From an uncultured bacterium (GTDB lineage: Bacteria > Nitrospirota > Thermodesulfovibrionia > Thermodesulfovibrionales > Thermodesulfovibrionaceae), in the NCBI GenBank assembly GCA_937998865.1, contig CALLBR010000039.1, forward strand, positions 1 through 64,000: DNA of 64,000 nucleotides, given 5' to 3'. Shown here in pieces: positions 18,457-58,857 of the stretch. The position numbers were made by a program, and so were the translations under genes. The first letter of the stretch is position 1; every line of letters begins with the position of its first letter. A model generated the notes under the pieces. That model searched no databases. It was not told the origin of the DNA and was given only the letters and a program-made list of their open reading frames with translations.

Positions 18457-19496
18457 CTCTCCTCCCATTTAAGAATTAAGAGGGAAAGAGTAAAGGAGTA
18501 GTAATTTTTCTCTTCCTGCATTTTCCTAAACCCTGTATCTTTTAGTTTTTCCCCTAGCTGAGTCTTTCCAATTTTTTTTGCCAAGTAAGAAAATATTAAA
18601 TAATGCATAGCCATAGCATCTTGAGAAGAAAGTCTTCCATCCTTTAGGTTTAAGTCCTTTGGAATATAGTTAATTTTTTCTGTGAGTTCTAAAAAATTTC
18701 TAAATTTTTCCAAAATTTTATTTTCCTTAGCCATAACTGCATAAAGAGGTATTCTAATTGCCTCAAAACCAAAAATACTCTCTCTGTCATCAGGCAGAGT
18801 TATGGTATTATTATTCTGTATGACAATCCAATCAGCAGGAAGGCTATACTGCCCAAAATTAACTTTTTCTAAAAATCTTATACTTTCAGAATAAAAATTT
18901 TCCCAAAAATCTTTATCACTAATGGCTGCAAATGCTTTATAGGCTGGCAGAATATAGTAGGAAGGATTAAGAATCAAAGATTCTCCCTTTTGAAAACCAA
19001 AATATCCTGGTAAAAGATATTGGTAACTGTCTCTCTTAATTATCAAAAGCTCCTTTATATCCTTAATAATTGCCTTTGCTTCATTTATAAATTCCTCCTT
19101 ACGCCATTTTTCTCCAGCCAGGCATAAGGCATAGGCAACTAAAGTATCTCCATCTGTGGCATTATTGTAGTCTAAGACTGTCCATTTACCAGAGATATGC
19201 TTTCCCCAGCTCCAGGAGAGGAGATTATCGCCTTTTCTTTTTTGAAGGTTAAATTTCGTCCAATTCCACAGTTTTTCAAAGGTCTCTTTATCATCAAACA
19301 AAACACTAAGTAGCATTCCATAGCCTTGTGCTTCAGAATGAGTAATAGAGTTATTTTGAAAGTCTATAACTCTACCATCCTCTGAGATAAAGTTTTTTTT
19401 GTAGTATATCCATTTATCTATAAGCATATCTGCAAAGGCATATTTATGAAAAAAGATAACTAAAAACACAAATAAAATTTTATTTTTCAGATTCAT
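18453..19496 (-). CDS. bcsZ: Periplasmic endoglucanase, GH8 family (BcsZ)
   Basis: 347 residues with a signal peptide (1-22). GH8 signature regions: SEAQGYGMLL with the general acid E55, WSWGK, NNATDGDTLVAYAL (D115, D117), and GFEAIRIPLY at 242-251. In enterobacterial BcsZ the matching position in YDAIR is the catalytic aspartate; here it is E245, a conservative change worth checking. BcsZ trims nascent cellulose in the periplasm and is needed for normal polymer export. It overlaps bcsB by 17 nt and bcsC by 4 nt, so it belongs to one translation-coupled operon. Confidence 0.9.
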   Translation of the reverse strand: MNLKNKILFVFLVIFFHKYAFADMLIDKWIYYKKNFISEDGRVIDFQNNSITHSEAQGYGMLLSVLFDDKETFEKLWNWTKFNLQKRKGDNLLSWSWGKHISGKWTVLDYNNATDGDTLVAYALCLAGEKWRKEEFINEAKAIIKDIKELLIIKRDSYQYLLPGYFGFQKGESLILNPSYYILPAYKAFAAISDKDFWENFYSESIRFLEKVNFGQYSLPADWIVIQNNNTITLPDDRESIFGFEAIRIPLYAVMAKENKILEKFRNFLELTEKINYIPKDLNLKDGRLSSQDAMAMHYLIFSYLAKKIGKTQLGEKLKDTGFRKMQEEKNYYSFTLSLLILKWEER

Positions 19497-21702
19497 TTAG
19501 CCTTTTCCTTTTAAAGCTTTGTAAAGCTCTGTAAATAAAGTAAGCCAAGATTGTAATCAAAATTATCATTAAAATTGTAAAAGCCATAGGATGGGCATAA
19601 ATCCAAGCATATAAACCTGAAAAAATTCCCATATTGCCTACATAATAAACTCTATCAGTATAGTAGGAAGATACAGTCTCTTCAGGATTTTGAGGATCAA
19701 AAATAGTTAAGGCACCACCTACTTTTGCCGTAAAGGAAGGCTCCCAGAGGGGATCAACTCCCTTTATAAGAGATTCCTCATCAGAGGCTGTAAAAATAAT
19801 GGAGGTTTTTCTACTTTCATAGGGAGATTCAAACTCTGAAAGCACTGTCCATTTACCATCCTGTTTACCGGAGAAATTGATACTGGATTTAGTAAAGACA
19901 AACTCTGACTTTGACTTAAAAATTGGTAAAAATTTCTCAATAAAGGCTCTAAACTTTGAATTTAAACTGGTTTCACCCTTTTCAAAATGTTTCACAAGAT
20001 AGTAGATAAAACTACCTCCTTGTTGTATTTGGATGCCAGCTGAGTTAAGAAAATCTTTTGGAGTTTTTTCATAAGAGCCCACTAAAAGAATATTTTTATT
20101 TTTCAATTTTTTTATGTCATAAGAAACTTTAATGCCAAAAGGAACATATCCAGCTCTTTGAGCAGATAAGGCAACAAGATTTATAGCAGCAGACAAAGTC
20201 TTATTGTCTTGGTCTGTTATGAAAAGCCCTGTGTTGCTAAAATCTGCTGGTTTAGAAAAGGGAAAGGCATCTGTAAAAAATAATGATAAATTAGGCATTT
20301 CTGTCCAAGAGGGCATATTAGGTAATGATAGCTTTGAATCCTCAAAAATAGTAAGTTGAAGATTCTCTGTCTGCACAAACTCACAGTACCCTGTTATAAG
20401 AGGAGACAAAACTGCTGTAAAAGTTATCAAATTATAGCCTGGCTTAAATAAACTTAAGGGTAAGTCAATAATGTAATTCCTTATTAATCCTCCTTTTATG
20501 TTATCAAGGTGAATTGAGGCTACGTATTTACCATTTATTTGAAGGTTAAGGCTGCTGTCTTTTCTCATCCCACTTCCATAACTAAAATTAAGCTTCAGGG
20601 ATATGAAAGAATTTGGTTTAAGAAATACATAAGAAGGTAGTCTAAAATCCAATGTTGTGGACTTTGCACCAACTCCTCTAAAGTTTGTGTTGAAGAAGTT
20701 CAAATCTCTAAAAGAATATTCATAACCTGGAAGCAAAACTCCTCTTCCAGCAGGAGCATTTTTAGGGACTAAGTTTATATTATCAATCTTCATATACTGA
20801 ACTTGTGGGAAAGGAAAATTAATGGAGGAAAAGGCTAATACGGATTTTCTGAGCTCTTCATAATTGTCTCCCTTAAGGATAATGTAAGCATAATAGGGAT
20901 CATCCTTTGGAGCAATAATTTTTATAATACTTCCTTTTTCTTGAATAGAGTCTCCTATAGTTTCCCTAATAAATTCACTTTCACCAATTATGATATTGTC
21001 AATACCCTTTTTTACTTTCTCGGAAATTTGAAAATTAACCGGCCTATATTCAAACTTTAGAGCAATAGCAGAAGCTACCATGGAAGCTAATTCAATAGTC
21101 TCTTCTTTTTTATTATTTACAACAAGATTAACTTCGTTTTTCCCAAACATTTTTGAGTCAAAGAGAAAATTAGCTATTGAAGATAAGTTTTCAGGTACTT
21201 TTTTTAAAGATATTTCAAAATCAAGGGTAGCTTTATCAAATTCAAGGGTTGTCCATAGTTCAGGTGAAGAGGGGTCTTCGCATTCATTTGTAAAGTGATG
21301 TGCTACAGTAAAGTTTAACTCATTGTATCCAGACTTTAGGAGGTTTACTGGAAGATTAATAGAGGCTTTACCTTGAGGTAACTGAGGATTAAGAGTTATC
21401 TGAGCAATAGGATGTTCGTTAAGCCATACTACAAGCCTTGACCTATTTTGAAGCAAAGCTGTAGAGTTTATATAGGAAAAATTAAGGACTGCCTTATTAA
21501 TCTGCCATCTGTCTGGAATGGGAATCTTCATCTTCATGTGATTTGCCATACCCATTAGGGTTGTGGTACTTACTGGTGTAACTTTAGAAAGAGGAATATT
21601 GATTTTTAAAATTTCCTGAGAGTAAACATCCTTTGAAGCAAAAATAATTAATGCCAAAAAACATAAAGAGAAAATTATTTTGAAATGCTGAATCCTCTCC
21701 AT
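19480..21702 (-). CDS. bcsB: Cellulose synthase subunit B (periplasmic, membrane-anchored)
   Basis: 740 residues. N-terminal signal segment (about 11-29), two repeats of a jelly-roll carbohydrate-binding plus flavodoxin-like module (about 40-320 and 345-680), and one C-terminal membrane helix (about 703-724) followed by a basic cytoplasmic tail (RALQSFKRKR). Conserved pieces include LNEHPIAQI and ECEDPSSPELWTTLE. BcsB pairs with BcsA at the inner membrane and helps pull the glucan through the periplasm. It overlaps bcsA by 28 nt and bcsZ by 17 nt. Confidence 0.92.
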   Translation of the reverse strand: MERIQHFKIIFSLCFLALIIFASKDVYSQEILKINIPLSKVTPVSTTTLMGMANHMKMKIPIPDRWQINKAVLNFSYINSTALLQNRSRLVVWLNEHPIAQITLNPQLPQGKASINLPVNLLKSGYNELNFTVAHHFTNECEDPSSPELWTTLEFDKATLDFEISLKKVPENLSSIANFLFDSKMFGKNEVNLVVNNKKEETIELASMVASAIALKFEYRPVNFQISEKVKKGIDNIIIGESEFIRETIGDSIQEKGSIIKIIAPKDDPYYAYIILKGDNYEELRKSVLAFSSINFPFPQVQYMKIDNINLVPKNAPAGRGVLLPGYEYSFRDLNFFNTNFRGVGAKSTTLDFRLPSYVFLKPNSFISLKLNFSYGSGMRKDSSLNLQINGKYVASIHLDNIKGGLIRNYIIDLPLSLFKPGYNLITFTAVLSPLITGYCEFVQTENLQLTIFEDSKLSLPNMPSWTEMPNLSLFFTDAFPFSKPADFSNTGLFITDQDNKTLSAAINLVALSAQRAGYVPFGIKVSYDIKKLKNKNILLVGSYEKTPKDFLNSAGIQIQQGGSFIYYLVKHFEKGETSLNSKFRAFIEKFLPIFKSKSEFVFTKSSINFSGKQDGKWTVLSEFESPYESRKTSIIFTASDEESLIKGVDPLWEPSFTAKVGGALTIFDPQNPEETVSSYYTDRVYYVGNMGIFSGLYAWIYAHPMAFTILMIILITILAYFIYRALQSFKRKRLNESEK

Positions 21703-23945
21703 ATCTCCCCCAAATTTTTATATTTTTTTATCTTTGATAACATAAATTCTGCCAATCCCCTTATATTTCTTCCCATAGCCTGAAAGCCTGTTATAAGTAA
21801 ATATGTAAAACCAGCCAATATTCCTTTTTGTCTTTGCCTTCTTTGCCAGAAAAATTCCCATCTTCCACTGTCACCATAAACATATTTGACTATAGTGCTT
21901 TCTTCATTGCTTTCATGAAAACTACATCCTATGTGTAAAGATTTATCAAGAATACTTACTCTTTTTACTACTAATAAAAAACTAAACTTTTCTCCAAAAT
22001 TGTTCCATGTTAATATCTCAAGAGTTTGATTTAAAAAAGGTATGAAATTTACATTTTTCATTTCTAAAGCCAAGCCACCTAAGGAAATATCCTTAACTTT
22101 AGCTTTGAAGCTTCTTAAAGTGCCAGGAACAATTATCAAAGCCTCCTCTTCTGTTAAGATTCTGTGATATCTTCTAATTTGTCTTAACTCATATAGAGCA
22201 CCTATGCAGGCAATAATCATAACTAAATTGAAAATAGTCCAAGACATGCAAACAGCCACAGCACCCCTTTCAAGGGGTGAATAAAGCCACTTATTTATGC
22301 CTGCATAAATACCAACAAGACATAATAGGAAAAGAACATAAAAGGGTATAACTCTCATATTAACAACACTTTCTTTCAGACTTACTCCCTTTGGAGTAAC
22401 CTTAAATGTAGGAGCCTTGGGATTAAGAATAGCACCAATAGTTGGAAAAAGTAAGAAAAAACTTTGAGCTGTCTCAAAAACTTCAGAAAAGAAAGGATGT
22501 CTAACTTTCCCATATAGATAATTAGAAATACTAAAGGATCCTAAGAGATGAGGGAGTGCATAGGATAGGATTTGTTCAATAGATACGTTATAAACTCTCA
22601 AAGTAAAAAGAAGATAAAAAAGAGGTGCAAAAATAAAAATTACCCTTGCCATCCCAAAAAACCAAAATATACAGTTATTTGTATAGCATAATTTTTGATA
22701 CCATTTTAACCCTTTTTGTTTGAAAGGATTTTTAAGCATAAGTATTTGAATCATACCCTGAGTCCATCGGCTTCTTTGAGTTATAAAGTCATCAAAGGTT
22801 TCTGGTGAAAGACCACATAGCATAGGTTTTTTCAGATAGGCACTTCTATAACCTCTACTGTGAAGAGTTAGAGATGTTTCTGCATCCTCTGTAATTGTTT
22901 TTCCAGAAAAACCTCCTGCTTCCTCAAGGTATTTTCTCCTTAAAACAGCTCCAGAGCCACAGAAAAAGGAGGAATTCCAAAAATCTAAACCTCTGTGAAT
23001 CTCACTGTAAAACATCTCATTTTCTCCTGGTGCTTCAGCATAGGTGCCAAGATTTTTTTCAATGGGAGATGGATTGATAAAAAAGTGGGGAGTTTGAACT
23101 AAGAAAAGCTTTTCATCTTTAAGAAAGAATCCTACAGTTTTGTCAAGGAAATCTGTTGTGGGAACATGGTCACAATCTAAAACAACTATCAAATCCCCTC
23201 CTTTTTTGGGAAGGTTTCCGTAGCAATACCACTCTGAACCTTTTAATCTCTCTTCACTATAACCTTCAGAAGTAAGCCATAGAGCATTATTAAGATTTCC
23301 AGCTTTTGCATGCTCATTTTTTTGCCTAGTAATGTAATTTATCTCAAATTCCTGGGCAATCTTTTTTAAGGTTTCATATCTTTGCCATGCCTTTGCTCTT
23401 TTTTCAGGTTCTGGTTGATTTCTTTTTTCGAGTGTGCCACCATCATCGAGAATAAATATGTTAAGTTTTTCCTTGGGGTATTTCATCTCTTTACAGGCAA
23501 TAACAGTAGTTCTTATGATTTCAAGGGGCTCATTATAAGTAGGAATAAAAATATCAACTGTGGGAAGTAATTTTTTGTCTTCAGGTAGTTCGGGAGGAAC
23601 TCGTTTTATAGGATTTATATTAACAAATATTCCAAGGATATAAATTGCAATGGCATACGTTTCAGCGAGATATAGCAAAAGCATGGAGATAATATCAAAT
23701 ACTCCTGTATAACTTAAGGTATTAAAAGTTCTGAAAATCCAATATCTTAATGTGAGAAAAAATCCAATAGATAAGACTAAAACTCTTAAAAATTGATGCT
23801 TTTCTTTTCTTGTAAGAAAGAGTATTAATGCCAATGAAAAATAGGCTAATACTGATTGCTGAAAAATGTCGAGGTAAAGTGAGGAAACTAAAATTAAAGC
23901 AAAAGCAATTAATATAATTGATATTACTCTAACTTTATAAATCAT
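21675..23945 (-). CDS. bcsA: Cellulose synthase catalytic subunit with PilZ domain
   Basis: 756 residues from the ATG at 23945 (a TTG at 23957 would add four; numbering below uses the longer form). Membrane helices lie at about 8-30, 35-75, 85-112 and 430-585. The GT2 domain has DDGG (171-174), the UDP/metal DCD (261-263), FFCGSG (331-336), TED (356-358) and QRSRW (394-398) that binds the acceptor. After the last helix, RQIRR (592-596) and DISLGG (623-628) are the c-di-GMP-binding motifs of PilZ. It makes beta-1,4-glucan from UDP-glucose and exports it, activated by c-di-GMP. All key residues are intact. First gene of the operon. Confidence 0.96.
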   Translation of the reverse strand: MIYKVRVISIILIAFALILVSSLYLDIFQQSVLAYFSLALILFLTRKEKHQFLRVLVLSIGFFLTLRYWIFRTFNTLSYTGVFDIISMLLLYLAETYAIAIYILGIFVNINPIKRVPPELPEDKKLLPTVDIFIPTYNEPLEIIRTTVIACKEMKYPKEKLNIFILDDGGTLEKRNQPEPEKRAKAWQRYETLKKIAQEFEINYITRQKNEHAKAGNLNNALWLTSEGYSEERLKGSEWYCYGNLPKKGGDLIVVLDCDHVPTTDFLDKTVGFFLKDEKLFLVQTPHFFINPSPIEKNLGTYAEAPGENEMFYSEIHRGLDFWNSSFFCGSGAVLRRKYLEEAGGFSGKTITEDAETSLTLHSRGYRSAYLKKPMLCGLSPETFDDFITQRSRWTQGMIQILMLKNPFKQKGLKWYQKLCYTNNCIFWFFGMARVIFIFAPLFYLLFTLRVYNVSIEQILSYALPHLLGSFSISNYLYGKVRHPFFSEVFETAQSFFLLFPTIGAILNPKAPTFKVTPKGVSLKESVVNMRVIPFYVLFLLCLVGIYAGINKWLYSPLERGAVAVCMSWTIFNLVMIIACIGALYELRQIRRYHRILTEEEALIIVPGTLRSFKAKVKDISLGGLALEMKNVNFIPFLNQTLEILTWNNFGEKFSFLLVVKRVSILDKSLHIGCSFHESNEESTIVKYVYGDSGRWEFFWQRRQRQKGILAGFTYLLITGFQAMGRNIRGLAEFMLSKIKKYKNLGEIWRGFSISK

Positions 23946-23963
23946 AGAAATGGACAATAATAA

Positions 23964-47150: not shown

Positions 47151-49710
47151 CTTTAAGTAACTCCTTCAATTCTTTCAGCTTTTTTAGTGCTTTTTGAGGA
47201 GTTAAAGAGTCGTAATCAATCTTTGAAAGCTCATTCTTAAGGGGATCACCTTGAAAGAAGAGATCTAATTGCCTTGCTTTTATTGGGAAAATTTGGAATT
47301 CTTTTTTCTCAAGCCTTTGAAGAAGTTCCTTTGCCTTTCTTAGTATTTCTTCTGGCAGTCCTGCAAGGCGAGCAACCTGAATACCGTAACTTTTATCAGC
47401 ACCACCTGGTCTTATTTTTCTCAAGAAAATTATCTCCTCTCCCCATTCTTTTACCTCTACAGTGTAATTTTTTACACAATCATGACTAAAAGCAAGAGCT
47501 GTCAGTTCATGATAGTGTGTGGCAAAAAGAGTTCTGGCTCTTATTTTTTCAGCAATGTATTCTACCACTGACCACGCAATACTTATTCCATCGAAAGTGC
47601 TCGTTCCTCGGCCAACTTCATCAAGTATTATAAAACTCTTTTGAGTAGCATTATTTAAGATATTTGCCGTCTCTATCATTTCTACCATAAAAGTGCTTTG
47701 ACCCTTTGATAAAAAATCTGAAGCACCAATGCGTGTGAAAATCCTATCCACAATACCTATTTGAGCACTCTTGGCAGGAACAAAGGATCCCATTTGTGCC
47801 ATTAGAATTATTAAAGCATTCTGTCTCATATATGTGGACTTACCTGCCATATTAGGTCCGGTAAGAATTATAATCCTTTGGTCATCTGTGCCAATTAATA
47901 GATCATTAGGTATAAATTTTGTGTCATGAAGTTTTCCTATTTGGATTAGTCTCTCGATAACCGGATGTCTTCCTTCTCTTATTTCAATAACTTGTGAGTC
48001 ATTTATTATTGGCCTTACATAATTGTATTTAGCTGCTACTTTTGCGAGGGAGAGAAGAAAGTCTAAGTAACCTATGGTTTCAGAATTAAAAATAATCTTT
48101 TCCACATAAGTTGACAGTGACTCTATAAGTTCAAAGTAGAGTTCTTGCTCAAGTATTTTTAATTTCTCCTCTGCTGTAATAATTTTTGCCTCAAGATCTT
48201 TAAGTTCCTCAGTAAAATATCTTTCAGAATTTGCAAGAGTTTGTTTTCTAATGTAGTGAGCTGGAACAAGGGGGAGATTTGGTTTAGTAACTTCAATATA
48301 ATATCCAAAAACTCTATTAAAACCAATCTTTAATGAGCTTATTCCGGTTTTTTTTCTTTCAACTTCCTCCATTTTAAGAATGTATTCCTTACCCTGTCGG
48401 CTTAGTGTTCTAAATTCATCTATTTGCCTATTGTAACCCTCTTTAAAAATTTCTCCTTCTGTTATTATTGTTGGTGGATTTTCTTTCAGGGCATTCTCTA
48501 TTTTTTCTACCATTTCATTCAGTTCATAAAGTTTTTCGGAGAGATTCCTCAAGAGGGGCGAATCACTTTTTAAAGTTTTTTTTAATTGAGGTATTTTCTT
48601 TAAGGCATTTTTTATTGCTAAAAGTTCCTTGGGATTTATAGTTCTATTTCTAATTTTAAAGGCAAGTCTTTCAGTGTCTGGAAAATCCTTTAGAATCTCC
48701 TCTATCTTTTCTCTCAAAATATAACTTTTATAGAAAGCTTCTACACCATCAAGTCGGTTTTCAATTTCATCCTTTTTCAAAAGGGGACAGGACATAGCAT
48801 TTCTCAAGTACCGAGTACCCATAGGTGTAAGTGTTTGATCTAAGACCCATAGCAAAGAACCTTCAAAATTTCCGTCAAGGGATGAGAAGAGTTCAAGATT
48901 TTTTCTTGTAGAGCCATCAAGAAGCATATACTCGGAGAGATTGAGCACTTTTAGTTCTTTAAATTCTGTGTGCTGTTTATTTTCCTCGAGATATTTTAAG
49001 AGGGCACCAGCAGCAGAAATTGCGTTGTGGAGTTCTTCAGCACCATAGCTATTAAGAGAAGCAATCTTAAAATGTTCTAAAAGATTTTTATAGGAAAGAG
49101 AGTAATCAAATTTCCATTCTTCAATAAAGGTTTTCAGGTAGGATGCTAATTCGTATTTCATGATCTCTTTCATACTGTTTGGTAAAAGGAGCTCTTTTGG
49201 TTCAAATCTTTGAACCTCATCAGAAATACTTTTGTCCGACTCATAAATGAAAAACTGTCCTGTCGTAATATCTGCTAAGGCAATTCCTTTTTTTCCCTTT
49301 GAGGGATATACTGCCATGATGTATATGTTTTCTTTAACCCCTTCAGGAAGATAAGTTCCCGGGGTAAGTACTTTAACTACCTGTCTTTCTACAATGCCCT
49401 TGGAAGTTTTTGGATCCCCTATTTGTTCACATATGGCTACCTTATAGCCCTCCTTAAGTAATCTTTCAATGTAGGATGAGGCTGAGAAATAGGGGATACC
49501 ACACATAGGAATTGGATTGTCTTTTGATTTATCTCGTGATGTGAGGGTTATGCCTAATATGCGAGAGGAAAGTATAGCATCTTCACCAAACATCTCATAG
49601 AAGTCACCAAGTCTGAAAAATAAAATAGCATCCCTGTATTGTTCTTTTATCTTTAAATACTGCTTCATCAGGGGAGTAATTTCTTCCTGTGAGATTGTAA
49701 GAAAGTTCAT
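47143..49710 (-). CDS. mutS: DNA mismatch repair protein MutS
   Basis: 855 residues, the usual length. The mismatch-binding domain has RLGDFYEMFGEDA (33-45; F37 and E39 of the FxE wedge). The connector, lever and clamp domains follow; the ATPase has TGPNMAGKSTYMRQ, STFMVEM, DEVGRGTSTFDG and ATHYHEL. A short C-terminal tail follows. It recognises mispairs and activates repair. Its promoter TATAAT ends 6 nt before the ATG and there is no ribosome binding site, so a leaderless message is likely. First gene of an operon with coaE and ribF. Confidence 0.97.
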   Translation of the reverse strand: MNFLTISQEEITPLMKQYLKIKEQYRDAILFFRLGDFYEMFGEDAILSSRILGITLTSRDKSKDNPIPMCGIPYFSASSYIERLLKEGYKVAICEQIGDPKTSKGIVERQVVKVLTPGTYLPEGVKENIYIMAVYPSKGKKGIALADITTGQFFIYESDKSISDEVQRFEPKELLLPNSMKEIMKYELASYLKTFIEEWKFDYSLSYKNLLEHFKIASLNSYGAEELHNAISAAGALLKYLEENKQHTEFKELKVLNLSEYMLLDGSTRKNLELFSSLDGNFEGSLLWVLDQTLTPMGTRYLRNAMSCPLLKKDEIENRLDGVEAFYKSYILREKIEEILKDFPDTERLAFKIRNRTINPKELLAIKNALKKIPQLKKTLKSDSPLLRNLSEKLYELNEMVEKIENALKENPPTIITEGEIFKEGYNRQIDEFRTLSRQGKEYILKMEEVERKKTGISSLKIGFNRVFGYYIEVTKPNLPLVPAHYIRKQTLANSERYFTEELKDLEAKIITAEEKLKILEQELYFELIESLSTYVEKIIFNSETIGYLDFLLSLAKVAAKYNYVRPIINDSQVIEIREGRHPVIERLIQIGKLHDTKFIPNDLLIGTDDQRIIILTGPNMAGKSTYMRQNALIILMAQMGSFVPAKSAQIGIVDRIFTRIGASDFLSKGQSTFMVEMIETANILNNATQKSFIILDEVGRGTSTFDGISIAWSVVEYIAEKIRARTLFATHYHELTALAFSHDCVKNYTVEVKEWGEEIIFLRKIRPGGADKSYGIQVARLAGLPEEILRKAKELLQRLEKKEFQIFPIKARQLDLFFQGDPLKNELSKIDYDSLTPQKALKKLKELKELLKDD

Positions 49711-49716
49711 TTATTT

Positions 49717-49746
49717 ATTATAACTTATTGCTTTAATGACCTTGAA
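49717..49746 (-). promoter_or_regulatory. Promoter of mutS-coaE-ribF, leaderless type
   Basis: On the minus strand: -35 TTCAAG (49741-49746), 18-nt spacer, perfect -10 TATAAT (49717-49722), which ends 6 nt before the ATG at 49710. Confidence 0.65.
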
Positions 49747-49778
49747 ATTTATAAACCTACTTTTATTGCAACAACTAG

Positions 49779-50160
49779 GGCTTGCTTCTCTACGCTTACG
49801 ATGACAACAGAGGGTCCATTGCTATTACGACATTAAATGTAAAGGAGTGGAAGTACGAAGCAATCTCTTTTATAGAGGCTTGAGGTTTTTTTCTGTAATT
49901 GGGAGCAGTCCAAAGGATTGCGTGGCAATCTCTCTTTATGAAACTACCTTTCCTTCTTCGTCATTTCGAGCACCAGAAGGGTGCGAAGAAATCACAATGC
50001 AGCCTTTTCAGTAAAAAAGTAAGAGACGAGATTGCTTCGTTGCTTCCTTTCCTAAAAATGACAGAAAAAAGTGCCCGTATTAACAAAAAAGACTTGCATT
50101 AAAGGTACGAAGGAGAGAGTGTATTACCCTTTTTGAGAAAGGACTCGCAATAACATTATG
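49779..50160. repeat. Intergenic zone of decayed palindromic repeats
   Basis: No gene is supported between mutS and the coiled-coil gene. The stretch holds several copies, in both directions, of pieces such as CGAAGCAATCTC (49855-49866), TCGTCATTTCGAGC with GTGCGAAGAAATC (49958-49994), and the inverse GAGACGAGATTGCTTCG...AATGACAG (50023-50064). These resemble the dispersed GTCATTGCGAGCGAAGCGAAGCAATCTC-type elements seen in many bacterial genomes. Copies here are mutated. They could fold into hairpins in RNA. Confidence 0.55.
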
Positions 50161-50253
50161 ATGACAGAAGGGCTCTAATGACAAAATATTAAGAAGGTTT
50201 GCAATAAAAGAATACCAAAGAGTTACCTTCGAGAAATGGAAAAATAATAATAG

Positions 50254-50283
50254 TTGCAAGGAGTTTATAACAATATCTATACT
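50254..50283 (+). promoter_or_regulatory. Promoter of the coiled-coil nuclease-like gene, very short leader
   Basis: -35 TTGCAA (50254-50259), 18-nt spacer, -10 TATACT (50278-50283), 9 nt before the ATG at 50293. The TTG at 50254, which might be taken as a start codon, is part of the -35 element. Confidence 0.65.
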
Positions 50284-50292
50284 AAAATTATT

Positions 50293-51243
50293 ATGATAGT
50301 TACAACATCATTACTGGAAGAAATTGCAAAGCTTGATCCTCCCCTAAGAACTGCCTTTATTGAGATAATGAAGGGCATAGAGAAAGCTATTGGAGATGTA
50401 GTAACAAGGCGAGATTTTCTTGAGCTCAGTGAGAGGGTTAACCGAATTGCCAAAGCTGTAGAAGAGCTTGCAGAGGCTCAAATAAAAAGTGAGGAGCGTT
50501 TAAGTAAAGTTGAAAAAGCCCTTAAGGAACTGGCAGAAGCCCAGAAGAAGACAGAAGAAAGGCTTAATAGGCTTGAAGAGGTTGTAACAGAGCTAGCAGA
50601 AGCTCAGAAGAAGACAGAAGAGAGGCTTAATAGGCTTGAAGAGGTTGTAACAGAACTGGCAGAAGCTCAGAAGAAAACAGAAGAGAGGCTTAATAGGCTT
50701 GAAGAGGTTGTAACAGAACTGGCAGAAGCCCAGAAGAAAACAGAAGAGAGGCTTAATAGGCTTGAAGAGGTTGTAACAGAACTGGCAGAAGCTCAGAAGA
50801 AGACAGAAGAAAGACTCAACAAACTTATTGAAGAACACATAAAGACAAGAGAGCAAGTTGGTTCTTTGGCTCATACAGTAGGGTATTTTCTTGAAAATGA
50901 AGCATATAAGTATCTACCAAAGCTTCTAATGAAAGACTTTGGCATTACTGTGGAAGGTTCTCTAATAAGAGATTATATAGAAGTATCCCCTAACAAATAT
51001 GAGGAAATAAATATTATTGGTAAAGGAAGAAAGAATGGTAATGAGGTTATAATATTGGGAGAGGCAAAAACTCAACTTAAGAAATCACACATAGATAAAT
51101 TTATTTCTTTGGTAAAAAAGATTGAGAAATTTTATCCTTCTGACAAGATACTCATTTTTGTAACCCATCAAACTTCACCTCTTGTAAGAGACTATGCTAA
51201 TAAAAAGGGAGTGAAGATTTATTTTAGTTATCAGTTTGTGTAG
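50293..51243 (+). CDS. Coiled-coil repeat protein with PD-(D/E)xK nuclease-like C-terminus (DUF3782-like)
   Basis: 316 residues from the ATG at 50293. A short helical head (1-50) is followed by six 21-residue coiled-coil repeats (about 58-183; ELAEAQKKTEERLNRLEEVVT) encoded by 63-bp tandem repeats. The C-terminal domain (about 190-316) has KYEEINIIGKG...VIILGEAKTQ, like the core of PD-(D/E)xK nucleases: E257-x-K259 is intact, but N240 stands where an aspartate is usual. Similar proteins are common in thermophiles and some archaea; their function is not known. Nuclease activity is doubtful without the aspartate. It stands alone between mutS and polB. Confidence 0.75.
   Translation: MIVTTSLLEEIAKLDPPLRTAFIEIMKGIEKAIGDVVTRRDFLELSERVNRIAKAVEELAEAQIKSEERLSKVEKALKELAEAQKKTEERLNRLEEVVTELAEAQKKTEERLNRLEEVVTELAEAQKKTEERLNRLEEVVTELAEAQKKTEERLNRLEEVVTELAEAQKKTEERLNKLIEEHIKTREQVGSLAHTVGYFLENEAYKYLPKLLMKDFGITVEGSLIRDYIEVSPNKYEEINIIGKGRKNGNEVIILGEAKTQLKKSHIDKFISLVKKIEKFYPSDKILIFVTHQTSPLVRDYANKKGVKIYFSYQFV
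50464..50841 (+). repeat. 63-bp tandem repeat array within a coding region
   Basis: Six in-frame 63-bp units. The first (50464-50526) and last (50779-50841) are diverged, and four nearly identical units span 50527-50778. Each encodes three heptads of coiled coil. Differences between inner units are mostly silent A/G changes, suggesting recent duplication and selection for the protein sequence. Confidence 0.9.
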
Positions 51244-51268
51244 AATTTTTCAGAAAGTCAAATAACTC

Positions 51269-53626
51269 TTAAAAAAGTTTAGATTTTTTCTCAAAGGCTT
51301 TTAATATTCGCATGGAAAGGGGTATTATCTGATTTTCAATGTAGTATTCTAAATCAATATTCGAAAAGTCTGCCAATTCAATAGGATAAGCTCTTTCACT
51401 AATGGAGCCCTTTCCTTTTTGTATTACATATCCTATGACACTTCCCTGTCCGATGGTAAATCCCTTTTGAGCTAATCTTTTTGCTGCTACAACATGGGGA
51501 GCCATTTGTTTGTATTCAGAAAGAGGCTTTGACAGCTGTTCATAAACTACCAAATCTTTTATATTAAAATTTCCTTCTCTTAAGGCTTTAATCCTCTCTT
51601 CAAGGTATCTAAAAGCTGCTTCCATGTTTTCCTCTATTAGGCAAAGTCTTAAAATTTCCTGCTGTGTATGCCTTGCGTATCTGCAGAGATCTCTTCGAAT
51701 GATTTCAAGTCCTCTTATCTTTAGTTTTCCCATCTCATCAAGTAAAGCGTATCTTTTTTTTGCTGTGCCTCCAGCTTCTCTCGGTACAAAAAGACCTTTA
51801 AGGTAGTATCCTTCTAAGTCAAGTCTCATCATGCCGGGAAGTTCATTATTTATTTCTGAGAGAAATTTTTCAAGTTCTTCTTTATTGCCCTTTACCTTTA
51901 AAAATGCTGAATCAGTATCGCCATAAATAGGATGGAATCCTCTCTGTTCCGCTTTTTTAAGTACTTCCTTTATCCAGTATCTTCCAAAAGCTGAGATGGA
52001 TTCAGCACATTCCTTCGAGTACCATCTACTGGCAGGATAGGCATAGTAACCATAAGAGGCGTTGATTATAGTTTTAAGTGCTCTTTGTTTTGTATCAAGG
52101 GTATGATATTCAGGAGATTCAGGAGATAGTTTTTTAAGTTCTCCTTTTAGTTTAAGTCTATCTTTCAGAAGTTCCTCTACTGCAAGAGATTCAAATCCCC
52201 TCTTTTTAGTGCAAAACCAATATGGAAATTCAGGAACTTTTATTCCTTCTTCTTTACAACAAGAGCAATTAAGTGTTTCAATTGAAATGTTGTAAGTGGC
52301 AATGATTGAGGGATAAAGAGAGGCAAAGTCAACAACAGCAATGCCCTTGTGAAGTCCAATCTCAGGTTCTTTAACAAAACCTCCTTCAAAACTTTGACCT
52401 TGACGAGCCTTTATTTCATCAAATTTGGGTTGATTTGGAATAACTCTATTTTCTCTCTTTGCTCTCTTAATATAGTGCCATTCCACAAGCTGGCTATAAG
52501 GCATGCGGGAAGTATCAAAAAGAGACTGTCCTGTGATTTTTGTAAGTTCTTCAATTTCAGGTAAAAGCATCTTTGTAAGACTATAAACAAGCTTGCTGTC
52601 CTTAAGGCAGTATTGAGCAAGCCTGTCAAGTTCATGTCCTTTGTCCCAAGCTTGCATAATATCCTCATATTCCATGTCAAGTTTGGTATCTCCCAGTAAC
52701 TCTGCAGCCACATTTTTAAGAGTGAGTTGTTCACTTTGAAGGAAAGGAGATAGAATATTTAAGACAAAATTATAAATGTCTATGTGGACTCTTCCTGTGA
52801 GCCGAGCAGTGGTAAACCTTGCTCTTTTTGAAAGAGTTATTCCTGAATTGTCTCTTGACAATACTCCCAAGTTAACTTTCAGTGCTTTGGCTCTTTCTTT
52901 TAAAATAGGCATGTCATAAAGATCAGTGTTATAGCCAGCTATTATGTCAGGATCATAATCCTGAATAATCTTAAGAAATTCCTCTATAAGGGATTTTTCA
53001 TCTTTCACAAGAATTACATCTACAGAATAATGAGACTGTTGATAGGTGATGATTTTTTCTAAATTTTCACCAACTACCGATATCATTATGATTGAAGGAG
53101 TTCCTCTTTTAATCTCTATTACTTCCATATCAAAGGTAAGGAGCCTGAGGGATGGTTTAGGTTTATCTACTTTTTTAGTGATTTTTTTTGCTTTATCACC
53201 ATCTAATATGATTTCAAGCCAGTCAAGGCAGGAAAAATCTCGTTCTGCAAGATACACTCGTGGAGCACCAATTTGATATTCAAATTCATCAATGACAGAA
53301 CCTGAGCCTCCTCTTTTTGCTTCTAAGAATTTTATTTCATCTCTTACTTTTTGTAGATCTTGATGCCGCTGTGTAAAGATCATTAGAAAATCTTGCTCTT
53401 TACCATTTAAATTTTTAGAAACCTCAGAGATTTCCAAGACTGGAAGCTTCTTGTATTTGATTAACTCTTCAATTTCTACCTTTGCAACTTCTTTATCTTT
53501 GCACAAGACTAAAAAGCAAGGCTTATAGGAATTATCAATAACACTAATTCTTTTGCTTTCTTCATTAATGCCGAAAAGAATTATACCTTCTTGACTTTCA
53601 TCTATGTCTATGAGATATATAAGCAT
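51269..53626 (-). CDS. polB: Family B DNA polymerase (Pol II-like)
   Basis: 785 residues. The 3'-5' exonuclease has Exo I FDMEV (D166, E168), Exo II GYNTDLYDMP (D235/D238) and Exo III YCLKDSKL (Y339, D343). The polymerase has motif A DFASLYPS (D433), motif B KTIINASYGYYAYP (519-531) and motif C YGDTDS (D570, D572). All catalytic acids are present, so it should be active with proofreading. Bacterial family B enzymes serve in restart after DNA damage and translesion synthesis. An extended -10 ends 6 nt before the ATG and no ribosome binding site is seen. A four-cysteine cluster (C454, C456, C457, C472) lies after motif A. Confidence 0.95.
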   Translation of the reverse strand: MLIYLIDIDESQEGIILFGINEESKRISVIDNSYKPCFLVLCKDKEVAKVEIEELIKYKKLPVLEISEVSKNLNGKEQDFLMIFTQRHQDLQKVRDEIKFLEAKRGGSGSVIDEFEYQIGAPRVYLAERDFSCLDWLEIILDGDKAKKITKKVDKPKPSLRLLTFDMEVIEIKRGTPSIIMISVVGENLEKIITYQQSHYSVDVILVKDEKSLIEEFLKIIQDYDPDIIAGYNTDLYDMPILKERAKALKVNLGVLSRDNSGITLSKRARFTTARLTGRVHIDIYNFVLNILSPFLQSEQLTLKNVAAELLGDTKLDMEYEDIMQAWDKGHELDRLAQYCLKDSKLVYSLTKMLLPEIEELTKITGQSLFDTSRMPYSQLVEWHYIKRAKRENRVIPNQPKFDEIKARQGQSFEGGFVKEPEIGLHKGIAVVDFASLYPSIIATYNISIETLNCSCCKEEGIKVPEFPYWFCTKKRGFESLAVEELLKDRLKLKGELKKLSPESPEYHTLDTKQRALKTIINASYGYYAYPASRWYSKECAESISAFGRYWIKEVLKKAEQRGFHPIYGDTDSAFLKVKGNKEELEKFLSEINNELPGMMRLDLEGYYLKGLFVPREAGGTAKKRYALLDEMGKLKIRGLEIIRRDLCRYARHTQQEILRLCLIEENMEAAFRYLEERIKALREGNFNIKDLVVYEQLSKPLSEYKQMAPHVVAAKRLAQKGFTIGQGSVIGYVIQKGKGSISERAYPIELADFSNIDLEYYIENQIIPLSMRILKAFEKKSKLF

Positions 53627-53632
53627 ATTGTA

Positions 53633-53641
53633 AGTATACCA
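53633..53641 (-). promoter_or_regulatory. Extended -10 promoter of polB, leaderless type
   Basis: TGG-TATACT on the minus strand (hexamer 53633-53638) ends 6 nt before the ATG at 53626. No good -35 and no ribosome binding site are present. A LexA-like box was not recognised. Confidence 0.55.
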
Positions 53642-53723
53642 AAAAGATTTTAATTAGAAAAAAATGATGAGTGTAAATTTTTTATAGCCTTCAGAATGAG
53701 TAAATTTTTATTAAAATTTGCAT

Positions 53724-53751
53724 TTGCAAAAAAATCTACATTTGATATAAT
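53724..53751 (+). promoter_or_regulatory. Promoter of the B12-fold-like/GGDEF-like pair, leaderless type
   Basis: -35 TTGCAA (53724-53729), 16-nt spacer, extended -10 TGA-TATAAT (hexamer 53746-53751). Only 5 nt separate the -10 from the ATG at 53757. Confidence 0.7.
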
Positions 53752-53756
53752 TAACT

Positions 53757-54842
53757 ATGGAAATTTCAGCTTTGAAAAAAATAAGTGAACTGGTAGATAT
53801 TTCTGATGATTTTATTGAGATACTTAAAACTAGTATCCCCCGGGCAATGCCTTTAGTTAAATCTGAAATTTTATCAAATAAAAAGCTTTATCAGTTAATA
53901 GGTAACAATTCCATAAAATTTTTAGAAGAAGTTCTTGAAAATGAAATTAAGATTATTTTAAAGTCCTTAGAATTTGATAATTTTGATTTTTTAATGAAAA
54001 ATTTATCACGCTTATTTAGTATTTGCATAAATAGGGGTTTTCAAAAAGAGTTTTTCAAAATTGATAATTTTTCTTGGAGCCTTGCCCTCTCCTCGAGCAT
54101 GATTAGATATGGTGAGGAGATAAAAATGTTTTACTCCTACATTTATCAAAATTTTGAGAGAATTGTCTCCTATCTTGATTATAGAGAGACATCCTATGAA
54201 TTTGTGGGAAAATATGAAGAGTTCTTTAGAAATTATCTCATTACACTTTTAGAGGGAGATTCCATAGAAGCTCAAATTTTATTAAAAAATTTTTTATTAG
54301 ATGACGAAAAGAGGGAAAAATTATATTTTCATCTTTTGTATCCATGCATATATAAAATTAGAACTCTTTATGAAACAGGCTTTATAGATGAACAAGAGGC
54401 TTATATGTCTTTTTCTGTTTTAAATAAAACGCTCTCATCCATTTATGAGGAAAAAATTCAAAAAGAAAAATCAAAATCTTATTTCCTTTATTTACCAGTA
54501 ACAAACATAATTGGTGAAAGGATACTAAATTTTTATAATAAATTAGAAGCTAACATTCTATCCCATATTTTAGCTTTCAAAGGATTTGAAACCTTTCTAT
54601 CAAATGCTAATCAAATAATTAGTGAAAAAATTAATTTTGAGGAAAGTCTTGTCTTTTTATGGGGTATTTCTCCTTTTAATTTTGAAGATTTCAAAAAAAT
54701 CATTGAAACCCTAAGAGCTAAATCCAGTGAGAGTAAATTCTTCATTTTTTCCGAAGACTTGCATAGCACGCCTCAATTACAATATTATGGAATTACCTTA
54801 AATAATCCAAAGAAAATTTTAGACATCATAGAAAATGTTTGA
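53757..54842 (+). CDS. Putative sensor protein with B12-binding-like fold, cobalamin motif missing
   Basis: 361 residues; no family is certain. Residues about 1-140 are all-helical (perhaps globin- or cap-like). About 160-232 (LLEGDSIEAQILLKNFL...YPCIYKIRTLYETGFIDEQEAYMS) follow the helical cap of B12-dependent sensors such as CarH/methionine synthase. About 240-361 show the alternating strand-helix pattern of the B12 Rossmann domain (GFETFLSNANQI, LVFLWGISPFNFEDFKKIIETLR). The DxHxxG cobalamin-ligand motif is replaced near 249-256 by NIIGERIL, so B12 binding is doubtful. It overlaps the PAS-GGDEF-like gene by 8 nt, so both probably act together. These fold assignments are inference by eye. 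Confidence 0.6.
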   Translation: MEISALKKISELVDISDDFIEILKTSIPRAMPLVKSEILSNKKLYQLIGNNSIKFLEEVLENEIKIILKSLEFDNFDFLMKNLSRLFSICINRGFQKEFFKIDNFSWSLALSSSMIRYGEEIKMFYSYIYQNFERIVSYLDYRETSYEFVGKYEEFFRNYLITLLEGDSIEAQILLKNFLLDDEKREKLYFHLLYPCIYKIRTLYETGFIDEQEAYMSFSVLNKTLSSIYEEKIQKEKSKSYFLYLPVTNIIGERILNFYNKLEANILSHILAFKGFETFLSNANQIISEKINFEESLVFLWGISPFNFEDFKKIIETLRAKSSESKFFIFSEDLHSTPQLQYYGITLNNPKKILDIIENV

Positions 54843-55794
54843 AAAATATTTAAAAAAAATTTTTGAAAAAGAAAAAACTGAACAGACTCGAGAAAGCGAA
54901 GAGGAAGTGAGGGGTTTATTGAGATTAAACATTGATTTTCTGATAGATTACATAGAAGAATTAGGAAACATAGTTTTTATAATTACAGATAAGGATTTGA
55001 TAATAAAGCATGCTAATAAAACTTTCCTAAGAATGGTAAATTTTGAAGATGTTAATGGAAAGAATTTAAAAATATTTCTACCTACCTACGTGAAACATTT
55101 ACCGATCCCAGAGAGTGAAAAGAGGGAAAAAATTTATCTTCATTTAAAGTGTAGGAAGCCAGATGTGAATATATGCCTTGAAGGTTATGTTTACGAGAAA
55201 AATAACATGCTTCTTTTCTTTCTAGAGAAAAGAATTTATGTTTATCATGAGCTTTATGAAAAAATATCAGAATTAAATAATGAAATCGCCGAATTAACAA
55301 GAGAATCAAAAAAGAAACAGATTCTTATAGAAAAACTACAGAAAGAACTCAAAGAGTCATTAAGAAAAGACTACCTCACAGAGCTATTTAACCGTTCCTA
55401 TTTTGAAGAAGTCTTAGAGAGAGAAATAAACAAGATAAAAAGATATAGAATTCCTTTGAGCTTAGTTTTAGTAGATGTGGAAAATTTTAAAGAGGTGAAC
55501 CAAAACTATGGAAGAACAACTGGAGACAGAGTCCTTAAGGACTTAGGTAAACTTTTATATGAGAATACAAGAATGGTGGACATGGTCTTTCGAATGGAAG
55601 AGGACAATTTTATTATTTTACTACCCAACACAAAGGGGGAGGGTGCTAACATTGTAGCAAAAAAAATAAAAAACTTGATTAACTCTACCTTATTTGAGGG
55701 TAATATAAGCATTTCTGTAAATACTGTATCTTTAGAGTGTAGCGAGGAGGATACTGTAGAATCAGTTATAGATAGGGTTTATAGAGCTTATTAA
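54835..55794 (+). CDS. PAS-GGDEF-like protein with degenerate active site and kept I-site
   Basis: 319 residues. A PAS-like domain (about 38-130; NIVFIITDKDLIIKHANKTFLRMVNF), a coiled coil (about 135-178), then a GGDEF-type domain (from 179; DYLTELFNRSYFEEVLEREI, LVDVENFKEVNQNYG). The signature position reads EEDNF (255-259) in place of GGDEF, so cyclase activity is not expected. RMVD (246-249) lies exactly five residues before it and matches the RxxD c-di-GMP-binding site. A c-di-GMP receptor role is therefore inferred. Its partner gene upstream encodes a B12-fold-like protein. Confidence 0.85.
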   Translation: MFEKYLKKIFEKEKTEQTRESEEEVRGLLRLNIDFLIDYIEELGNIVFIITDKDLIIKHANKTFLRMVNFEDVNGKNLKIFLPTYVKHLPIPESEKREKIYLHLKCRKPDVNICLEGYVYEKNNMLLFFLEKRIYVYHELYEKISELNNEIAELTRESKKKQILIEKLQKELKESLRKDYLTELFNRSYFEEVLEREINKIKRYRIPLSLVLVDVENFKEVNQNYGRTTGDRVLKDLGKLLYENTRMVDMVFRMEEDNFIILLPNTKGEGANIVAKKIKNLINSTLFEGNISISVNTVSLECSEEDTVESVIDRVYRAY

Positions 55795-55853
55795 ATTTTA
55801 ATTTCATGTTAAAATAAAAATTGTTTAAATAAAACTGAAAGAAGGGGGCTTTT

Positions 55854-56078
55854 ATGATTGACAAAGCTAAGGTTGAACAAGTTTTAGGGAAAATTAGAGT
55901 GGGGCTTATGGCTGATGGAGGTAATATTGAATTAGTAGAGATTAAGGATGACAAAATCTATGTAAAATTAAAGGGTGCCTGCGGAACTTGTCCTATGGCT
56001 ACTCTTACTCTTAAAAACTGGGTGGAGAAGACATTAAAAAGCGAAATCCCTGAAGTAAAGGAAGTAGTAGCTGTGTAA
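55854..56078 (+). CDS. NifU C-terminal-domain (Nfu-like) iron-sulfur scaffold protein
   Basis: 74 residues covering one NifU-like domain: MADGGNIELVEIKDDKIYVKLKGACGTCPMATLTLK with the cluster-binding C44 and C47 (CGTC). Nfu proteins carry 4Fe-4S clusters to target enzymes. A ribosome binding site AAGAAGGGGG precedes the ATG. It lies 59 nt after the GGDEF-like gene and 4 nt before amiC, so it may share the amidase transcript by position only. The cysteine desulfurase at 35049 could feed it. Confidence 0.92.
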   Translation: MIDKAKVEQVLGKIRVGLMADGGNIELVEIKDDKIYVKLKGACGTCPMATLTLKNWVEKTLKSEIPEVKEVVAV

Positions 56079-56082
56079 AGTA

Positions 56083-57297
56083 ATGTTCAGGATTTTTTTA
56101 TTTTTTTTACTCTTTTTTACATTATCACTGGCCTTTGCTGAAGAAAAACTTCAGATTAAGGATATAAGATATTACGAAATCAATAATGGTATAAGGGTCA
56201 TCATTGAAACCACTGGATTTGTTGAGTTTACAAAGGGGCAGCTAAAAAATCCAGAGAGACTATTTTTTGATTTTAAAAAAGTTCAACTAAACAAAGAGAT
56301 AAAAAAGGAATTTCTAATAAACAAACACAACATTGGTAAGATCCGCGTAGGTCAATTTGATCCTAATACTGCAAGAATTGTCTTTGATCTACTAAACAGT
56401 GAATATGAATTTAAAATTATTCAGCTAGAAGATCCTTCCAGAGTGGTCATAGACATCTACTCTGTTAAGGATAATGCCAGTTCCTTTATTGACATAAATA
56501 GAGAAAATGACAAAAAACTTAAACTTATTAAAAAGAAGATTGTGATTGATCCAGGACATGGAGGTAAAGATTCTGGTGCTATTGGACCTAATGGACTTAT
56601 GGAAAAAGATGTGGTTCTTGATATTGCTTTAAAGATTAGAGAAATAATGAAGGATAACCCTAAGTATGAAATTATTTTAACGAGAGACAATGATACTTTC
56701 ATTCCCCTTCAGGAAAGAACAGAGATAGCAAATAGAAATAAAGCAGATTTATTTATTTCAATTCATGCAAATGCTTCTTTAAACCCTCATGCACGCGGGA
56801 TAGAAACATACATCCTAAATTGGACTGATGATGAGGAGGCAATCAGAGTTGCAGCAAGAGAAAACGCTATATCAGTAAAAAAAATGAAAGAATTAAAAGG
56901 AGAGATAGGTACAATGCTTGCATCTTTGGAAAGAGAGGCTAAAAGGGATGATTCTGTAAAGATTGCAGGATATGTTCATAATTCATTAGTTAATGGAATA
57001 AAATTTTCCTTTCCAAGGAATGATAACGGATTAAAACAGGCACTTTTTTATGTTTTGGTGGGTGCTCAAATGCCTTCGTGTCTACTTGAAGTCGCTTATA
57101 TTAGCAATCCAGAAGAGGAAAGATTATTGGCTAATGAGAAATTCAGGATGAATATTGCCCAAGCAATAGCTGAGGGCATAGAGAATTATTTTGAGAAATC
57201 AGAAAAAGTTAGAAAAGTTAAATATACTAGTAACTTTTTAATAAGAGCGGACAATAAAAAGTCAAAAAACTCAAAAATAGGCTCCAAAAAACTCTAA
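56083..57297 (+). CDS. N-acetylmuramoyl-L-alanine amidase with AMIN domain (AmiC-like)
   Basis: 404 residues. Signal peptide (1-19), AMIN domain (about 22-128) that targets peptidoglycan or secretion complexes, and Amidase_3 domain (about 152-375). Zinc ligands H159 (DPGHGG), E174 and H228 (SIHAN) are present, and the catalytic E336 lies in LLEVAYISNPEE. A basic tail follows. It cleaves the bond between MurNAc and the stem peptide during daughter-cell separation. The two genes after it encode a D-aminoacylase and a C26 peptidase, which could act on released peptides. Confidence 0.93.
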   Translation: MFRIFLFFLLFFTLSLAFAEEKLQIKDIRYYEINNGIRVIIETTGFVEFTKGQLKNPERLFFDFKKVQLNKEIKKEFLINKHNIGKIRVGQFDPNTARIVFDLLNSEYEFKIIQLEDPSRVVIDIYSVKDNASSFIDINRENDKKLKLIKKKIVIDPGHGGKDSGAIGPNGLMEKDVVLDIALKIREIMKDNPKYEIILTRDNDTFIPLQERTEIANRNKADLFISIHANASLNPHARGIETYILNWTDDEEAIRVAARENAISVKKMKELKGEIGTMLASLEREAKRDDSVKIAGYVHNSLVNGIKFSFPRNDNGLKQALFYVLVGAQMPSCLLEVAYISNPEEERLLANEKFRMNIAQAIAEGIENYFEKSEKVRKVKYTSNFLIRADNKKSKNSKIGSKKL

Positions 57298-57303
57298 ACA
57301 AAA

Positions 57304-58857
57304 ATGGAATTATTTATAAAAGATGCCCTTTTAATTGACGGAACTGGAAAACCTTCCTTTCAGAGTAACATTGGAATAGAGGGAGAAAAAATAATTTACA
57401 TTGGAAAAGAGACCTTTGCAGCCAAGAGGGTAATTGAAGCAAAAGAACTTATTGTAACTCCTGGCTTTATTGATACTCATTCCCATTCCGATTTTACAAT
57501 TCTTGCAGATCCCAGGGCTGAAGGTAAAATAACTCAGGGAATTACAACAGAGATTAATGGAAACTGCGGAGTATCACCTTTCCCTCTTAGTGGTGAAGCC
57601 TTTGATAGAAGAATTACAGAAATTAATTCTTTAGGCTTAAAACCTTGGAAAACCATAGAACAATACATAGATCTCCTAAAAAAGGCAAATCCTTCTATAA
57701 ATCTCGCTTTTTTTTGTGGTCATGGTAATATTAGAGGCTCAGTTATAGGTTATAAAAATGTGAAGGCTAATAGAAAGCAGCTTAGTGTTATGAAAAACCT
57801 TCTAAAAAAACACTTTTTTTACTCAATAAAGGGGCTTTCTACTGGTCTCATATATCCTCCGGGAATGTTTGCAGAAAGGGAGGAATTAATTGAACTTAGC
57901 AAAATAGTGGCTAAATATGGTGGTCTCTATACAACACATATGAGAAGCGAGGGTGAAAAACTCTTTTCAGCCTTGGAGGAAACTTTATCTATAGGTAAAG
58001 AAGCAAAAATTCCAGTACATATTTCTCATATTAAGACATCTGGAAGAGAAAATTGGTGGAAAATAGACTCTCTCCTTAGCATAATTGAAGGCGCCCAAAA
58101 GGAAGGCTTAAAGATTACCTGCGATAGATATCCCTATACTGCTTCCTCTACGGATTTAGATGCTTTTCTGCCTTCCTGGATAGTGGAAGGAAGCAGAGAG
58201 GATATTATAAAGAGGTTAAAAAATTCAAAAGTAAGAAAGCAGATAAAAAAATATTTAAAATCAAAGGGAGAGAGCTTTCTTAAGAGTCTCCTAATCTCTG
58301 ATACCGCTTTTCACTCCGATAAAAAATTTGAAGGTAAAAGTTTAGGCGAATTAACAAACTTAGAGAATGCAGCAGATTTCATTGCAGACCTCCTAATCCG
58401 CTCAAACCTAAGGGTAGGTGCTATTTACTTTGGAATGAAAGAGGAAAATCTAATAAAAATACTTTCGAAACCCTATGTAATGATTGGTACAGACAGTTCA
58501 GCAAAATCAAGCAATGGAATTACTGCCCATGGAAAACCTCATCCAAGAGGCTTTGGAAGCTTTCCAAGATTTTTAAGAAGGTATGTTTTAGAGAAAAATA
58601 TCATAAAAATTGAAGAAGCTATAGAGAAAATTACTGCACTGCCTGCAAAAATTTTTAAAATTGAAAAAAGGGGACTAATCAAAGAGGGATATTTTGCTGA
58701 TTTAGTCATAATGGACCTCAATGAAATTGAAGATACCGCAACCTTTGAAGAGCCTTTCAAAATTGCAAAGGGTATCAAATATGTAATTGTAAACGGTTCA
58801 GTAACTGTAGAAGATGGCACACTTAGTGATATAAGAAAGGGGCAAATCCTCCTATGA
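57304..58857 (+). CDS. N-acyl-D-amino-acid deacylase (D-aminoacylase family amidohydrolase)
   Basis: 517 residues of the amidohydrolase superfamily. It has VTPGFIDTHSHSDF (H59, H61), GNCGVSPFP with the bridging cysteine typical of D-aminoacylases, GHGNIRG, THMRSEG, HISHIKTSG and GTDSSA near the end. The expected reaction removes the acyl group from N-acyl-D-amino acids, or hydrolyses D-amino-acid-containing dipeptides. It starts 6 nt after amiC and overlaps the next gene by 4 nt. Linked use in breaking down peptidoglycan peptides is inference. Confidence 0.9.
   Translation: MELFIKDALLIDGTGKPSFQSNIGIEGEKIIYIGKETFAAKRVIEAKELIVTPGFIDTHSHSDFTILADPRAEGKITQGITTEINGNCGVSPFPLSGEAFDRRITEINSLGLKPWKTIEQYIDLLKKANPSINLAFFCGHGNIRGSVIGYKNVKANRKQLSVMKNLLKKHFFYSIKGLSTGLIYPPGMFAEREELIELSKIVAKYGGLYTTHMRSEGEKLFSALEETLSIGKEAKIPVHISHIKTSGRENWWKIDSLLSIIEGAQKEGLKITCDRYPYTASSTDLDAFLPSWIVEGSREDIIKRLKNSKVRKQIKKYLKSKGESFLKSLLISDTAFHSDKKFEGKSLGELTNLENAADFIADLLIRSNLRVGAIYFGMKEENLIKILSKPYVMIGTDSSAKSSNGITAHGKPHPRGFGSFPRFLRRYVLEKNIIKIEEAIEKITALPAKIFKIEKRGLIKEGYFADLVIMDLNEIEDTATFEEPFKIAKGIKYVIVNGSVTVEDGTLSDIRKGQILL

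Follow-up and report, generated by a model that had tools for sequence, protein, structure and literature searches.

Here we describe a two-gene signalling unit that is homologous to, and a paralogue of, an intact pair made of a B12 sensor and a PAS-GGDEF diguanylate cyclase, in which signature motifs have been lost from both partners and the RxxD I-site, the pairing of the two genes and purifying selection on both have been kept. The unit lies in the window, by which we mean the whole 64,000-nucleotide stretch of DNA that was analysed (Table 1). We tentatively read it as a diverged copy of a B12-sensor/cyclase unit that would now serve as a c-di-GMP receptor, with the apo sensor as its adaptor, and we rate this reading at a little under an even chance. 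Set beside the intact pair, it offers a natural before-and-after comparison, within one genus and one genome (G004), of a whole unit whose role shifted from making c-di-GMP to, presumably, reading it while its sensor and its enzyme degenerated in parallel.

Table 1. Features of the gene pair and of the region just upstream (window coordinates).
Feature	Coordinates	Strand	Description	Basis
Promoter-like site 5' of gene 1	53723..53751	+	TG ahead of second hexamer; weak	10/12 consensus match
Gene 1	53757..54842	+	Degenerate globin-cap-B12-fold sensor, 361 aa	ORF
N-terminal globin-like (BBAG/photoglobin-type) domain	53790..54173	+	aa 12-139	E 7e-11 against model of intact N-terminal domains; hhalign E 3e-9
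Four-helix cap (B12-binding_2-like)	54219..54455	+	aa 155-233	PF02607 E 0.006; hhalign E 2e-12; alignment
Rossmann-like former cobalamin-binding domain	54474..54839	+	aa 240-361	hhalign E 2e-6, best shuffle 0.025; motif scan
Gene 1/gene 2 overlap	54835..54842	+	8 nt, ATGTTTGA	Sequence; kept in relatives
Gene 2	54835..55794	+	PAS - coiled coil - degenerate GGDEF, 319 aa	ORF
PAS domain	54943..55239	+	about aa 37-135	PF13426 (PAS_9) E 3e-5, weak, below the family's own cut-off
Coiled-coil linker	55240..55368	+	aa 136-178; LNNEI.xLTRE signature common to partners of intact sensors	Alignment
GGDEF domain	55369..55755	+	aa 179-307; without C-terminal KxxGRN	PF00990 E 6e-29; alignment; motif scan
I-site RMVD	55570..55581	+	aa 246-249	R and D invariant in 7/7 divergent and 5/5 intact copies
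EEDNF at GGEEF position	55597..55611	+	aa 255-259	E[ED]D[NK]F in 7/7 divergent copies

Taken as a single sequence, gene 1 matched nearly nothing: its one Pfam match, to the B12 cap (PF02607, E 0.006, aa 162-226), was sub-threshold, searches of PDB sequences with gene 1 alone or with its own family profile returned no match, and an AlphaFold2 model built with one relative in the alignment was uninformative (pLDDT 40.6, pTM 0.25). At the level of sequence, profile-profile comparison with intact sensors was decisive in placing gene 1 among the B12-sensor homologues. Six divergent sensors compared over their full length with seven intact sensors gave an hhalign E value of 4e-19, and each of the three domains aligned separately (Table 1), the control for the Rossmann part being the best of 20 column shuffles. 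This bears out the cap-like bundle and Rossmann-like domain which a preliminary description of the pair saw in gene 1. The homologous sensor family has three domains, however, consisting of a globin-like domain, a four-helix cap and a B12-binding Rossmann domain, and the N-terminus of gene 1 proved to hold a further, globin-like domain, roughly 140 aa long, ahead of the cap. Its globin-type matches (Phycobilisome and smURFP) were both weak, and a stand-alone gene homologous to it adjoins a B12 gene in locus L055; on this evidence, which is suggestive and short of proof, the domain is probably a bilin-type globin.

The signatures of cobalamin binding are missing from the divergent sensors. Wx9EH is the upper-face adenosyl pocket motif of CarH-type cobalamin photoreceptors, and it occurs together with ExHxxG in all intact sensors that cover these positions, one fragment not reaching Wx9EH. 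Motif scans found Wx9EH, GxxW, ExHxxG and GxxxP in 0/6 divergent sensors, and likewise the E/DxHxxG ... SxT ... GG series that holds the lower axial His and loop. In gene 1 itself, the cap aligns Y...AY where Wx9EH is expected, and the Rossmann domain is without ExHxxG, SxT and GG, in agreement with the lack of DxHxxG first noticed. No His or Cys is invariant across the six divergent sensors, nor any His even in the closest five, and the His residues that are invariant in intact N-terminal domains are replaced. These motifs argue against binding of adenosylcobalamin by the gene 1 protein, and we infer that cobalamin binding has been lost. A more distant B12 protein on G004:C20 is also without ExHxxG. 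In a B12-binding protein of G004 at L056 3678-4715, Wx9EH is kept and DQHDLA stands in place of ExHxxG.

Gene 2 has the PAS, coiled-coil and GGDEF-type architecture first ascribed to it, and segments similar to its linker (LNNEL) are found in the histidine kinase and PAS proteins that partner intact sensors. Alignment with canonical relatives upheld both the EEDNF for GGDEF and the placing of RMVD at the RxxD I-site, five residues ahead of the degenerate motif. Residues of the domain are given in the numbering of PleD. Divergent copies have E[ED] for GG, a conservative D for E370, N/K for E371 and R for H340, and the KxxGRN phosphate-contact motif is present in 0/7 of them and 5/5 intact copies; diguanylate cyclase catalysis has probably been lost. 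The claim that the domain keeps only its c-di-GMP site did not survive. The equivalents of the substrate-site residues D327, K332, N335 and D344 are invariant in all seven divergent copies, these four being among the 42/122 invariant GGDEF columns of the divergent set, and the third I-site arginine (PleD R390 / PelD R402 position) is Lys in 6/7, with Arg only in G012. Since several substrate-site residues are equally conserved, retention of RxxD alone is weak evidence. Bacillus cereus PelD needs the third I-site arginine (PMC7112168), and Lys at this position weakens, without excluding, a PelD/YdaK-like way of working.

The divergent pair was found in 7 of the 16 genomes surveyed in the window's genus (G000, which is the window's own genome, G009, G004, G011, G003, G012 and G008). 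The 8-nt overlap was confirmed in the window and recurs in G009, G004, G011 and G003; an overlap of the same kind (ATGATTGA) is present in G008, and G012 instead has a 10-nt gap. The same N-acetylmuramoyl-L-alanine amidase-like gene lies downstream of the pair in five genomes. Among the 177 genomes of the order, no divergent pair was found outside this genus, the remaining matches being intact sensors, and a scan of viral contigs revealed no relatives. The divergent sensor gene of G008 (L032 1-800; L031 1-210) has an apparent frameshift at contig ends beside an intact GGDEF partner, and assembly error is possible. About 2 kb from the pair in G012 lies a photolyase/cryptochrome-like gene, named by eye from sequence (L033 3989-5359). 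Promoter-like matches around gene 1 were no more numerous than in shuffles, and no RNA elements were found with Rfam over 49000-58000 of the window. At 50527-50810, a 63-bp tandem repeat (4.5 copies, 95% match) encodes coiled-coil repeats of a 329-aa ORF (50254-51243).

Besides its divergent pair, G004 carries an intact one, whose sensor has WETGKISVAEEH (Wx9EH) and NEYHELG (ExHxxG) and whose next gene encodes a PAS-GGDEF protein with RHED...GGEEF. Intact pairs, whole or partial, are also present in G003, G006, G008 and G176. Genes adjoining intact sensors encode PAS-GGDEF, PAS-histidine kinase or PAS-only proteins; in other genera, a PAS-histidine kinase lies by the sensor in L054 and L055 (full sequence) and in L053 (judged from the N-terminus), and a PAS-only protein in L051. 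In the split sensor of L055 (3121-5358), a cap/B12 protein, a PAS-histidine kinase and the stand-alone globin-like protein follow in a row. The best PDB matches of the intact family are photocobilins (8J2W, 8J2X and 8J2Y), with further matches to CarH and methionine synthase; no named system had been recognised for the pair at first, and its ancestral type can now be given as a photocobilin/CarH-like sensor beside a PAS-output partner. Heme oxygenase genes lie by intact globin-B12 sensors at L051 2166-3449 and L054 5770-6429, as expected for biliverdin supply, and none was found in the window's genus. G000, G009 and G012, all of which have the divergent pair, yielded no intact sensor, and B12-binding_2 proteins are absent altogether from G000. 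The intact PAS-GGDEF gene of G008 stands directly 5' of bcsA-bcsB-bcsZ-like genes (named by eye), a gene order which suggests cellulose synthase as the output of the intact pair there. A bcs (cellulose synthase-like) operon, listed with L037, is also present in the window (16066-23957, minus strand), its bcsA having a PilZ domain at 21876-22181.

That G004 holds both pairs, and that a tree separates the divergent cyclases as one group from the intact ones (support 100/99), makes the pairs paralogous. The G012 copy and the outgroups sit on long branches, and the split may date from within the genus or, if accompanied by loss or transfer, from an earlier time. Because intact motifs are widespread in other B12 proteins and cyclases, the change presumably ran from intact to degenerate. 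Across the closer five genomes, dN/dS (NG86; larger dS values are rough owing to saturation) was 0.20-0.33 for gene 1, 0.09-0.24 for gene 2 and 0.09-0.16 for the neighbouring amidase gene, so purifying selection acts on both genes, if a little less strongly than on the amidase. In six genomes divergent gene 1 remains intact, at identities as low as 24%. The preliminary description was essentially right in what it described, and its proposal of a functional unit gains from the purifying selection on both paired genes; its interpretation was partly supported.

A c-di-GMP receptor with an apo-sensor adaptor is the best reading of these data because PelD/YdaK and CarA provide precedents for its two halves. 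Binding of c-di-GMP, a physical complex, a target and the adaptor role are what we infer within it, and neither the kept overlap nor the coiled coil is proof that the two proteins form a complex. The ancestor would have been a globin-B12 (photocobilin/CarH-like) sensor with a PAS-coiled coil-diguanylate cyclase, of which the window pair would be an old paralogue. The sensor would have stopped holding adenosylcobalamin and the cyclase would have stopped joining GTP. The GGDEF domain of gene 2 may now bind c-di-GMP at RxxD, and the apo sensor, still on the PAS/coiled coil, may serve as a structural adaptor or else sense something other than a cofactor, relaying or tuning the c-di-GMP-bound state to a target. 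The second messenger is presumably available, since the window's genome encodes, besides gene 2, several proteins with GGDEF, two with EAL and three with PilZ domains. On balance we doubt, while taking seriously, the fuller scenario in which sensor and enzyme were copied as a unit and their chemistries disappeared in parallel, a B12 light- or cofactor-sensing maker of c-di-GMP becoming a reader and the former B12 domain becoming regulatory or target-binding.

Inactive paralogues commonly act as dominant-negative partners. The pair may accordingly have no small ligand left and serve as a protein-protein regulator, for instance by joining the intact pair or some other cyclase in mixed complexes. 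In G003, G004 and G008 each of the two pairs is represented at least in part, but the divergent pair persists in G000, G009 and G012, whose searches revealed no intact sensor, which rules out the intact pair as its sole target; RxxD is moreover kept in all divergent copies, and we consider this explanation unlikely. The invariant substrate-site residues, with Asp at the E370 position, would also fit a degenerate GGDEF domain that binds GTP or another nucleotide in the old substrate pocket and works as an allosteric module or senses nucleotide levels, with RxxD as a relic. Acidic residues in place of both phosphate-loop glycines and the loss of KxxGRN should disfavour GTP, however, and this possibility appears quite improbable.

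Gene 1 could instead have acquired a new ligand, such as haem, another tetrapyrrole or a redox signal, and pass its signal to the GGDEF protein. SCHIC domains illustrate that the B12 fold can hold haem, and both fold and selection have been maintained here. Against this stand the replaced His residues of the N-terminal domain and the lack of any invariant His or Cys in the divergent-sensor alignment, which make a haem/SCHIC cofactor unlikely and tell against the haem, redox or other His-ligated cofactor proposed at first; biliverdin is unlikely because the genus has no haem oxygenase. A new ligand of any of these kinds is decidedly improbable. Least probable of all is a decaying pair of pseudogenes on their way out. 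The apparent frameshift in G008, albeit at contig ends, and the absence of the pair from about half of the genus would suit decay, yet intact copies persist in six genomes to the gene 1 divergence given above, and dN/dS well under 1 for both genes in the closer five leads us to reject it.

Returning to the receptor with an apo-sensor adaptor, known systems resemble the pair in part. PelD binds c-di-GMP via the RxxD of a degenerate GGDEF domain (PMC7112168), as does YdaK (PMC7064775), and both share with gene 2 a degenerate GG(D/E)EF and a retained RxxD. They are membrane proteins of exopolysaccharide operons, whereas gene 2 encodes a PAS protein, belongs to no such operon and differs from both in its B12-fold partner and its Lys at the third I-site position. 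In Myxococcus, CarA, without Wx9EH, acts B12-independently beside its B12-dependent paralogue CarH (PMC8156234), and is like gene 1 a B12-fold paralogue lacking that motif; CarH and CarA are MerR-type repressors, however, and CarA retains the canonical B12-binding motif that gene 1 has lost. In the BBAG-2 clusters of globin and B12-binding proteins (PMC10151467), a separate globin gene adjoins a B12-binding gene, as in L055, whereas the globin-B12 protein of the window is fused and its genus has no haem oxygenase. Closest are the photocobilins SasPcob and AbDPcob (PDB 8J2W, 8J2X, 8J2Y; PMC10979010), which likewise combine a four-helix cap, a B12 Rossmann domain and a globin-like domain, AbDPcob being likewise tied to diguanylate cyclase output. 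In photocobilins the globin domain is C-terminal and the protein a single-chain fusion; here it is N-terminal, two genes are involved, and the window pair is without any cofactor residues. A photocobilin-diguanylate cyclase fusion has already been published (PMC10979010), and the units described here suggest that the same idea also exists in a two-gene (trans) form, in genomes without haem oxygenase.
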